Positions 24,216-30,506 of a DNA stretch of 45,822 bases are shown here, piece by piece. This DNA comes from Eubacterium sp. (GTDB lineage Bacteria; Bacillota; Clostridia; Oscillospirales; Acutalibacteraceae), in contig JAFLRZ010000016.1 in assembly GCA_022511225.1 (NCBI GenBank), positions 1 to 45,822 of the forward strand, written 5' to 3'. Below the pieces are notes generated by a model that ran no database searches, had not been told where the DNA came from, and saw only the letters and a list, made by a program, of their open reading frames with translations. The position numbers were made by a program, and so were the translations under genes. The first letter of the stretch is position 1. The number at the start of each line of letters is the position of its first letter.

Positions 24216-24626
24216 TTACAAATATCTGCTCTTTACCTTCAGACGCTCCATCGCTCTTGCAAGGTTTGCCTGTGAATGATGATGTTCAAGGATAGAAAGC
24301 TTCTGGCGCATTTCTTCCTCAGCTCTTTCCTTCGCCTCCTGTGCTCTGCGGGCATCTATTTCATCGGGATGCTCGGCAGAAACGCAGACAAGAAGAATCG
24401 AATTATCAAAGCATTCCAAAAATCCGTTACCGACAAAAGCGTGTACGATTTCATCATCCTTGTCAATAATTTTCATTTCGCCTGCATCTATCGGAAGTAC
24501 GCAGTTTTCGTGATGTGCAAGAAAGCACATCTGTCCTCCGTCTGTATGAGGAACGACAAGTGAAGTTGCTTCGCCGTCAAAAAATATTCTGTTTGATGCA
24601 ATAATTTTAAGCTGAAAGGTGTTCAT
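24216..24626 (-). CDS. atpC: ATP synthase F1 epsilon subunit
   Basis: This 136-residue subunit of the rotor stalk couples c-ring rotation to catalysis and can inhibit ATP hydrolysis. The N-terminal beta-sandwich (about 1-85) has the usual FFDGEATSLVVPHTDG and FVGNGFLECFDNSILLV. The C-terminal helical hairpin is Glu/Arg-rich (RRAQEAKERAEEEMRQK). It is the last gene of the operon, starting 15 bases after atpD, and ends just before a hairpin. Confidence 0.93.
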   Translation of the reverse strand: MNTFQLKIIASNRIFFDGEATSLVVPHTDGGQMCFLAHHENCVLPIDAGEMKIIDKDDEIVHAFVGNGFLECFDNSILLVCVSAEHPDEIDARRAQEAKERAEEEMRQKLSILEHHHSQANLARAMERLKVKSRYL

Positions 24627-24641
24627 ATATTCTTACCATCA

Positions 24642-26914
<2,273 letters not shown>

Positions 26915-26922
<8 letters not shown>

Positions 26923-28927
26923 TATTTACCTTCTCAAATTTATCAGCAGCTTCAAGTATTCTGCTCTTAGTATCGTCATCAAGAATCTTATCTTGTTCGA
27001 TAAGATTCGGTATTTCGGAATAATTTGTGCTTATGAAATCAAGCAGATTCATCTGGTATTTCTTTATATCGTTTACAGGAACGTTTACAAACTTCTTGTT
27101 GGTTGCTGCGACGAGAGTTATTACCATATCCGAAAGTGATAACGGCTTACCGAGAGGCTGCTTAAGGAGTTCCATAAGACCTTTACCGTAAATGAGTCCT
27201 GCCTTAGTTTCTTCATCAAGATCAGAGGAAAACTGAGTGAAAACCTCCATTTCCCTGAACTGAGCAAGATCAATACGAAGTGAGCCTGCTGCCTTTTTCA
27301 TAGCCTTTGTCTGCGCTGCGCCGCCTACACGAGATACGGAAAGACCTACGTTTACCGCAGGACGCATACCGCTGAAGAACAAATCACTTTCGAGGAAAAT
27401 CTGTCCGTCTGTAATTGAAATAACGTTAGTAGGGATATACGCAGAAACGTCGCCTGCCTGTGTTTCGATAATAGGAAGTGCGGTAATTGAACCGCCGCCG
27501 AGTTCGTCGGAAAGCTTACTTGAACGCTCAAGTAAACGGGAATGAAGATAAAATACGTCACCCGGATAAGCTTCACGTCCCGGACTTCTTTCAAGCAGAA
27601 GTGAAAGCGCACGGTAAGCTACTGCGTGCTTGCTTAAATCGTCATATACAATAAGGCAGTCCTTGCCCTGATACATAAAGTGCTCTGCTAATGCAGTTGC
27701 AGAATAAGGTGCAATATACTGAAGAGATGCAGGGTCGGACGCTGTTGCACAAACAACTATCGTATAATCCATTGCCCCTGCTTTTTCAAGAGTATTTACA
27801 AGCTTTGCAACACTTGACGCCTTCTGACCTATTGCGTTATAGATGCAGATAACGTCCTTGCCCTTTTGATTAAGTATTGTATCAATGGCAATTGAGGTTT
27901 TACCTGTCTGCCTGTCGCCTATAATAAGCTCTCTCTGTCCTCTGCCTATAGGGAACATTGAGTCGATTGAGAGAATACCCGTTGCCATTGGAGTGTCAAC
28001 GCTTTTTCGATCAACAATTGAAGGAGCGCTATGCTCGATAGGTCTGTAATCCTCGGCATCAATATCTCCCTTGCCGTCAATTGCCTCACCGAGAGCATTA
28101 ACGATTCTGCCTATAAACGAAGCACCTACAGGAACGCCGGCACTTTTATGAGTACGCTTTACTCTCGTGCCCTGATGAATACCCATATCACTTCCGAAAA
28201 GGATAATACCGACAGAATTTCTCTTTATATCCTGCACCATACCCTTTATGCCGTTTTCAAACACAACGATTTCGCCGTACATAGCGTGGTCAAGACCGTG
28301 AACGGTAGCAATACTGTCACCTACTCTGACAACTGTGCCGATTTCTTCACTGTCACGGCAAAGCTCAAAGTCCCTGACATCCTGACGAAGCACCTGAATA
28401 ATCGTATCCTGCTCTGCTTCGCTTTCGCGTGCGGTTTTCATTACTTGATTTTTGATAGATTCAAGCTTGCTTTTAAGGCTGAAGTCGTACTCCTTACTGC
28501 CTACACTGATAATAAAACCGCCGATAAGGCTGTCATCTTTGACAATTTCAATCTTTGCATCTTCTGCCTTTTCTTCCTTGCAGACAAATTTCTTTATGCC
28601 GTCAAGCTGTTTATCGTCAGGCGGATTTACACAGTAGACTATTGCCTCGGCAATATTTGATTTTTTGTTAAGCTCGGATATATAGTTCTTAATAATATCT
28701 TGCAGGCTGCTGACATTACACTCCTGAGCAAGCTCTGCAATAAAGCTTTGAACTGACGGAGCAAACAACTCGTCAATAACCTTGCGCTTATCCTGATTTG
28801 AAACGTTTGGATTATCAAGTATCTGTGCAAGCTCATCACTTGATTTAACAAGCCTGAGTGCTTCCTCAAGACCTGAAACACTTGCCTGTGATGAAAGCAA
28901 TGCATCAATATATTTATCAAAATTCAT
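26915..28927 (-). CDS. atpHA: Fused ATP synthase F1 delta and alpha subunits (AtpH-AtpA), single ORF
   Basis: One continuous 670-codon ORF encodes both subunits. Residues 1 to about 160 are a whole delta subunit: an N-terminal helical domain (YIDALLSSQASVSGLEEALRL) and a C-terminal domain with DDSLIGGFIISVGSKEYDFSLKSKLESI. After a short linker (about 161-175), an essentially complete alpha subunit follows: N-terminal helix about 175-190, IGTVVRVGDSIATVHGL, Walker A GDRQTGKT (337-344), YDDLSKHAVAYR, and SVSRVGGAAQTKAMKK with the arginine finger. Normally the genes are separate because F1 contains three alpha but one delta. No stop occurs at the junction. The only Met there (residue 163, nucleotide 28441) has no ribosome binding site in front of it. 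Mycobacteria fuse b with delta; I do not know of a described delta-alpha fusion. The start at 28927 overlaps the atpF stop. Confidence 0.93.
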
Positions 28928-29433: not shown

Positions 29434-29679
<246 letters not shown>

Positions 29680-29708: not shown

Positions 29709-30506
29709 TTATGCAGCCTTAGCTGCTTTTTTGCTGTGTCTTTTAAGCTTTTTCTTTTGCTTTCGCTTTTTTGTTTCCTCTTCGGTTTCAACTGCCTCCT
29801 GAACATAAAGAGCAGTAAGGAACACGAATATATACGCCTGCAAAAGTCCGTCAAATATATCAAAGTACAGACTCAGCACTACAGGAACTACCATAGGCAC
29901 AACTGCTTTGATAAGTTCCATAATCGTAAAGGCGGCGATTACGTTACCGAAAAGTCGCATACAAAGTGAAAGCGGTTTTGTAAATACCTCTAAAATATTA
30001 ATCGGTGTGATAACCCATATAGGTTTTGTGAATGCCTTTATTCTGCCGAGAAAGCCTTTCTCCTTAAAAGCGCAGTACTCGACGAGCACGATACTCGTTA
30101 TTGCCATAGCGGCAGTAACCTGCATACTCTTTGTCGGCGGTTTCATACCAAACAGTCCGATTATATTTGACACGCCGATGAAAAGTGCCATACTCATAAG
30201 CCACGGTATATACTTATATACCTTCTCGCCCATAAGCCCTTTGAAGAACTCCTCACCTTTGGTATACGCAAGCTCGAGCAGAAGCTGACGCTTTGAGAGC
30301 TTGCCCGTGACCTTTAAATTTCTTGTCAGCAGAATAGAAATAATCGCGAGAGCTGCGATAATAATCCACGAAACTACTGTAGCCTCATCAAATCCGATTT
30401 TGACATTCCCTATCTTGAAGCTGAAAACCTCTGCAATATTCAGCTGCTCATTAAGCTCCTCAGCTAAGTTAAGTCTTATAAAATCCGAATTTAATATAGT
30501 AATCAC
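29709..30506 (-). CDS. atpB: ATP synthase F0 a subunit, first gene of the atp operon
   Basis: This 265-residue membrane subunit forms the ion half-channels. The essential arginine is Arg184 in PLSLCMRLFGN. The last helix ends in YIFVFLTALYVQEAVETEEETKK and is followed by an unusual basic tail of about 20 residues (K/R/H-rich, to AAKAA). The start is uncertain. The only canonical in-frame codon is GTG 30506, but a perfect GGAGGTGAT site overlaps it. An in-frame ATA at 30497 has ideal eight-base spacing from that site. No atpI gene precedes it. Confidence 0.9.
   Translation of the reverse strand: MITILNSDFIRLNLAEELNEQLNIAEVFSFKIGNVKIGFDEATVVSWIIIAALAIISILLTRNLKVTGKLSKRQLLLELAYTKGEEFFKGLMGEKVYKYIPWLMSMALFIGVSNIIGLFGMKPPTKSMQVTAAMAITSIVLVEYCAFKEKGFLGRIKAFTKPIWVITPINILEVFTKPLSLCMRLFGNVIAAFTIMELIKAVVPMVVPVVLSLYFDIFDGLLQAYIFVFLTALYVQEAVETEEETKKRKQKKKLKRHSKKAAKAA

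Follow-up and report, generated by a model that had tools for sequence, protein, structure and literature searches.

The F1 part of ATP synthase contains three alpha subunits and normally one delta subunit, so a gene that encodes both in a single chain raises the question of how such an enzyme could be assembled. A gene of this kind lies in the window, by which we mean the whole 45,822-nucleotide stretch of Eubacterium sp. DNA that was analysed (contig JAFLRZ010000016.1). The surrounding operon has the normal order (a, c, b, delta-alpha, gamma, beta, epsilon) and contains the following features:

29709..30506, minus strand: atpB, subunit a
29434..29661, minus strand: atpE, subunit c, 75 aa
28927..29409, minus strand: atpF, subunit b, 160 aa; its stop has one base in common with the ATG of the fusion
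26915..28927, minus strand: fusion of delta and alpha in a single open frame of 670 aa
28658..28927, minus strand: delta N-terminal domain (NTD), residues about 1-90, six predicted helices
28424..28657, minus strand: delta C-terminal domain (CTD), residues 91-168; the b2-binding part in an engineered enzyme, according to the available text on that enzyme
28439..28441, minus strand: ATG of Met163, not conserved and without a strong Shine-Dalgarno sequence
28412..28423, minus strand: junction break between helices in the fold model, four residues (169-172)
28373..28411, minus strand: alpha N-terminal helix, residues 173-185, kept in fused relatives
26918..28372, minus strand: alpha body, residues 186-670, matched by Pfam and TIGR00962
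26038..26922, minus strand: atpG, gamma; its first 8 bases lie within the end of the fusion
24642..26021, minus strand: atpD, beta; the listed frame reaches 26075, with an ATG at 26021
24216..24626, minus strand: atpC, epsilon, both domains present

The fused frame begins with an ATG at 28927 and has no internal stops, and since it overlaps both atpF and atpG, a separate alpha or delta gene would not fit there. Residues 19-161 match the OSCP family (PF00213) with 90.8 bits against a gathering cut-off of 22.3, covering profile positions 25-171 of 172 with the initial 24 unmatched; by this score and the fold model, the delta part belongs to the family with both its NTD and its CTD. The alpha part carries the three Pfam domains ab_N (PF02874, residues 193-259), ab (PF00006, 317-532) and ab_C (PF00306, 539-664), and scores 752 bits with TIGR00962 (atpA, cut-off 484), residues 173-666 corresponding to profile positions 4-499 of 503, as an F-type alpha. 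The initial annotation had delta running into alpha without a stop, and one 670-aa frame with OSCP and all three alpha domains bears this out. An alpha of the alternate F1F0 or N-ATPase type was rejected, its model (TIGR03324) giving 605.5 bits, below the cut-off of 750.5, while canonical atpA scored higher. A fusion of the mycobacterial b-delta type was likewise ruled out, as b has its own gene here.

In the genome of origin (completeness 98.65%), the single OSCP match and the single atpA match over cut-off both fall on the fusion gene, and no second delta or F-type alpha was found over cut-off. The remaining ring ATPases found are beta and two V/A-like frames on contig C19. These adjoining frames (C19:439-2546, L156) resemble V/A-type B and A subunits by eye, from which the organism probably has a V-type ATPase as well.

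OSCP matches were found in 114 of the 398 genomes of the family. Among the matches listed, all seven genomes of the same genus (own included) carry stop-free frames of 670-678 aa. The literal fusion, and with it the problem of three deltas that the annotation had raised, thus stands: a single gene serves for both subunits and is common to the listed same-genus genomes. Full fusions also occur in named strains outside metagenomes, namely Lachnospiraceae bacterium GAM79 (complete genome, L088), Pseudobutyrivibrio xylanivorans DSM 14809, Agathobacter ruminis JK623 and Oribacterium parvum ACB1. The best 80 of at least 595 candidate loci in named genomes comprise 26 full fusions, 33 CTD-alpha fusions and 21 two-gene loci, proportions that are skewed towards fusions because the loci were ranked by likeness to the fusion.

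Codon comparison of the window gene with L037 gave dN/dS values of 0.26 for the NTD, 0.09 for the CTD and 0.05 for alpha (rough, as dS is over 1). Across seven pairs, all three parts are under purifying selection where dS was computable (mostly >1), and the 14-codon linker gave 0.28-0.40 in the three of these seven pairs that were unsaturated. Split genes in some near relatives, such as the identical locus L052/L107 within the 15-row clade of the window, might suggest that the gene is decaying or that sequencing or assembly went wrong. However, the junction sequences differ among the seven same-genus genomes, the same architecture recurs in strains, and the gene is under purifying selection. 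For the group of fused genes error or decay is excluded, and for the window gene it is hardly credible.

Translation could also begin inside the gene, at the junction, and yield plain alpha, leaving only part of the chains fused, a way out that the annotation had offered. ATG, GTG and TTG codons from -25 to +15 codons around the alpha start were scored by duplex energy to the 16S tail. A site at or below -8 kcal/mol was present in 52/52 split loci, all labelled as having a full delta; one of these, L055, is on reading a CTD-only mini-delta, although it is counted as split with full delta here, in the tree labels and in the conservation comparison below. The positive controls reached the same threshold at the fusion's own start (66/80) and at beta (65/75), b (65/71), c (63/82) and gamma (48/78). 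At the junction of the fused genes it was reached in 9/37 full fusions, compared to 34/296 control windows inside alpha (11.5%), in 6/43 CTD-alpha fusions (controls 52/344) and in 0/6 triple fusions (controls 6/48). Where a separate mini-delta precedes alpha, the alpha start lies at or below -8 in 6/11 loci and at or below -6 in 11/11, so not every split form shows the strong-start signal.

The best start-like site at the junction of the window gene is a GTG 13 codons into alpha (-6.1 kcal/mol), and not Met163. The latter (28441) is the sole ATG between residues 1 and 216; at its position two of the seven same-genus proteins have M, and the other five have L, I (twice), V or T. The annotation was right that the Met at 28441 has no ribosome binding site, the best junction site being another codon. 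Among the seven same-genus loci, only L036 has a site at or below -8 (a TTG 14 codons into alpha). Candidate starts near the junction occur in a few fused relatives, L032, L034 (ATG), L131 and L140 (GTG), in which an internal start is possible by sequence, and the full fusions as a set are somewhat above their control. Against this, the window gene offers a weak GTG inside alpha and a Met163 that is replaced in five of the seven same-genus proteins, while the split genes have a strong site throughout. Judging from the weak junction site and the variable Met163, no conserved internal start gives rise to alpha here, and we consider internal initiation very unlikely for this gene.

Cleavage of the chain at the junction after translation would yield ordinary alpha and surplus delta. 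The linker is polar and variable, as well as of low confidence in the fold model, which would be compatible with a cut; yet no conserved linker motif was seen in 80 aligned fused loci, delta would be left in threefold excess, and 43 CTD-alpha fusions share the same joint without an NTD. We regard cleavage as unlikely. Given the single copy, the same-genus fusions, the variable Met163 and the lack of a strong internal start, the chain is probably used whole. With good confidence, then, the gene encodes the working alpha of the sole F-type ATP synthase, and every F1 head would carry three deltas; the frame, its single copy and its conservation are observations, and the uncut chain is the step that we infer.

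The annotation knew of no described delta-alpha fusion, which has to be corrected. In the available text of Ueno et al. (2025, PMC12229609), a natural delta-alpha fusion with the NTD missing is named in Acidaminococcus fermentans, and two UniProt entries (G4Q3K6 and A0A1I2C5T3) are given as having 'similar features', their function untested. As a kind, the delta-alpha fusion has been known since 2025. The same text reports an engineered Bacillus PS3 FoF1 (delta-DeltaN-alpha) that has about two stalks on average and three at most. Its H+/ATP ratio is 5.8 vs 3.0 and its equilibrium proton-motive force (pmf) 68 vs 133 mV, so that it makes ATP at about half the usual pmf; cryo-EM showed very few particles with three stalks, and the enzyme pumped protons less well. 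In the authors' argument, the presence of the NTD restricts the enzyme to a single stalk; they also state that multi-stalk ATP synthases may exist naturally, leaving this to experiment.

The window gene resembles the A. fermentans gene and the two UniProt entries, as described there, in being a natural delta-alpha gene fusion, but it has the NTD that the A. fermentans gene lacks by description. With the engineered chain (PDB 9jc1) it shares a short linker between the C-terminus of delta and the N-terminus of alpha, and three delta CTDs per F1, which in the window case are predicted. According to the available text, delta residues 2-104 were removed from the engineered chain and the C-terminal domain from its epsilon; in contrast, the window gene is natural, keeps its NTD (residues 1-90) and lies in an operon with a full epsilon. 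The window gene thus has the CTD-linker-alpha layout of delta-DeltaN-alpha and lacks its NTD deletion. The available text of Ueno et al. describes no full-length delta-alpha form.

A monomer fold model built from 45 fused sequences was of moderate quality (pLDDT 76.2, pTM 0.63). The NTD was modelled as six helices (3-12 to 72-89; block pLDDT 74-88) and the CTD (about residues 91-168) with a block pLDDT of 82 that drops to 63 in the final helix; the alpha N-helix reached 52-55, and the nucleotide domain was partly below 50. The top Foldseek match of the whole model was PDB 9jc1_I (E 1.7e-51, TMq 0.62, rmsd 8.6), which aligns to window residues 91-662 as a single stretch. The NTD boundary was set by this alignment, residue 2 of the 9jc1 chain pairing with window residue 91. 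The entry was absent among the 50 VIA-align entries shown, whose rows cover mostly residue 172 onward.

The b-delta fusion of Mycobacterium and Gordonia (PMC5709465) also joins delta to another ATP synthase subunit, but as far as the available text goes, its partner b needs no tripling of delta, whereas alpha is present three times. In its available text, the 2017 survey of ATP synthase operons (PMC5709465) reports this b-delta fusion and no delta-alpha fusion. Our literature search returned no other paper recognisably on delta-alpha fusion. As far as the literature was searched, the full-length form, its recurrence and its standing as the sole source of F-type alpha and delta found in a genome are new, as is the range of related arrangements, a triple fusion among them.

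The arrangements in relatives were read from open-frame lengths and profile columns among the matches listed. Full delta-alpha fusions (arrangement A) occupy 11 places among these matches, 11/11 inspected. CTD-alpha fusions without the NTD (B) are represented by 17 frames of 575-641 aa among the matches listed, of which 10 were inspected and one scores under the family cut-off; in the named set, 32/33 have a start site at or below -6.2 kcal/mol preceding the CTD (best of the first 45 codons). A separate, CTD-only mini-delta (C) was found as 15 short frames among the matches listed (12 inspected). Operons with a mini-delta and an ordinary alpha were seen at L053-L063 and L067, the mini-delta being, for example, 73 aa long in L056 and 78 aa in L063.

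The triple fusions (D) comprise 11 frames of 738-754 aa among the matches listed, six of them inspected, with a b-like hydrophobic N-terminal stretch followed by the delta CTD and alpha, and with a second b gene adjoining. Frames of this type lie at L048:4409-6628(-) and in L043, L046, L049, L050 and L051, with a short separate b gene, and a 96-aa frame after beta in this operon resembles a short epsilon by eye. In L048, the only D frame scanned with Pfam, ATP-synt_B reaches 25.7 bits at residues 8-52, short of the cut-off of 28, and OSCP profile positions 96-172 match residues 156-234. Such a chain, if used whole, could hardly fail to give each F1 three membrane-anchored arms. Genome G251 carries a triple-fusion operon (L051) plus a canonical operon (L003).

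Two full genes for delta and alpha make up arrangement E. Split atpH/atpA Clostridia such as L107 and L108 resemble the window in having delta followed by alpha (best segment 71 and 73% identical), but there the two are separate genes, and alpha has its own strong ribosome site. By frame lengths, a fused alpha and a split canonical operon occur together in G884, G776, G946, G1051, G1118, G926, G966 and G1085; genomes with both operon types offer a natural within-cell comparison. The NTD is duplicated in the 785-aa fusion frame L040:5527-7881(+), which reads NTD-NTD-CTD-alpha and was excluded from the NTD/CTD conservation comparison.

An alpha tree was built from 128 sequences, leaving out 21 canonical split rows plus L004 and L071 (no alpha frame), L071 having entered by a weak OSCP match (6e-4); L041 was reassigned by hand from CTD-only to full fusion. 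The triple fusions form a single branch, while arrangements A, B and E are intermixed, with 18 changes over the five labels. Fused genes as one clade were rejected (p-AU 2e-5; 73-row subset with 49 fused and 24 split), a value that is indicative because the rows were thinned by hand and the tested group was named after the first tree was viewed. By sequence, delta-alpha fusion appears recurrent in Clostridia, and each change on the tree could be a fusion or a splitting. If the NTD was never regained, as the count assumes, fused lineages lost it on four or more occasions (branches with SH-aLRT >=95), and on seven in the tree as drawn. Delta and alpha are in frame in 7/52 split pairs, so simple loss of a stop is no general explanation of fusion, and in-phase genes as a preadaptation were ruled out in general. 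The fused gene L077:5953-7992(+) of Candidatus Onthocola stands alone in a well-supported clade of split Mediterraneibacter genes; it represents either a fusion that arose separately and recently, or a fault in a single metagenome bin.

The explanation that we favour overall, with moderate confidence, is that the whole fused chain is used, giving three deltas per F1 and room for one to three stalks. In each chain, the delta CTD would rest on the N-terminal helix of the adjoining alpha and could dock a b2 dimer. The central dimple atop alpha3beta3 would be filled by a single NTD, the two others being displaced. A b2 docking site that is present three times makes one to three peripheral stalks possible, and by analogy with the engineered enzyme each would assemble with its own a subunit. 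Following the same analogy, more protons would pass per ATP, and a fermenting anaerobe could make ATP at a low pmf. Of the ways out of the three-deltas problem that the annotation had listed, the internal start is unsupported for this gene; a fourth way out, extra peripheral stalks, for which the available text of PMC12229609 provides an engineered precedent, had been overlooked.

Conservation of the delta domains was compared at matched alpha identity, with pairs that are non-independent and a split set that includes distant canonical enzymes. At alpha identities >=0.75, full fusions have a better conserved CTD than split genes (0.62 vs 0.44 in the 0.80-0.85 bin), and their NTD is conserved equally or more (0.46 vs 0.43); at 0.65-0.75, the NTD is somewhat less conserved in fusions (0.22-0.26 vs 0.29-0.30). 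Relaxed selection on the NTD of fusions was looked for in this comparison, with a mixed result and no consistent sign. The ribosome-site energy of atpF, taken as a proxy for extra b subunits and thus stalks, went against them, being weaker in fused loci (medians -10.3 and -10.4) than in split ones (-13.2, p 3e-4).

In a single-stalk enzyme, one NTD would be central, one b2 docked and two delta parts idle. This would agree with the NTD being kept without consistent decay, with its role in enforcing one stalk as argued in the available text of Ueno et al. (PMC12229609), and with the lack of any sign of stronger b translation. However, two b2 docks per enzyme would be left free, idle copies alone do not explain the CTD being more conserved in fusions at alpha identities >=0.75, and fused lineages have lost the NTD repeatedly, which implies that they can do without a one-stalk lock. 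We consider a single-stalk enzyme plausible, though on balance rather improbable. Several stalks are favoured by the engineered precedent, the stronger CTD conservation in fusions and the repeated NTD loss, with the lack of consistent NTD decay, the weaker atpF sites, and the scarcity of three-stalk particles and reduced proton pumping of the engineered enzyme counted against them; by analogy, the chance that a real fraction of the complexes has two or more stalks seems only a little short of even. With RnfC encoded in the genome of origin, an ion gradient has a source, and the physiology fits one or several stalks.

With delta and alpha in one chain, the motor would carry three deltas and maybe more than one side stalk, and may work at low energy. 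We tentatively propose, with some doubt, that gut Clostridia can make ATP at low pmf thanks to a higher H+/ATP ratio, and that recurrent fusion was the first step, followed by NTD loss, a free CTD-only delta and b-delta-alpha chains that anchor every alpha in the membrane. The relatives provide a graded natural series, in which delta is split, fused with its NTD or fused without it, and which includes cultured gut and rumen strains. Comparison along this series would test whether the NTD sets the stalk number, and whether H+/ATP can evolve by added a subunits rather than a bigger c-ring. If the multi-stalk reading is true, ATP-yield estimates for fermenting Clostridia with such genes would change.
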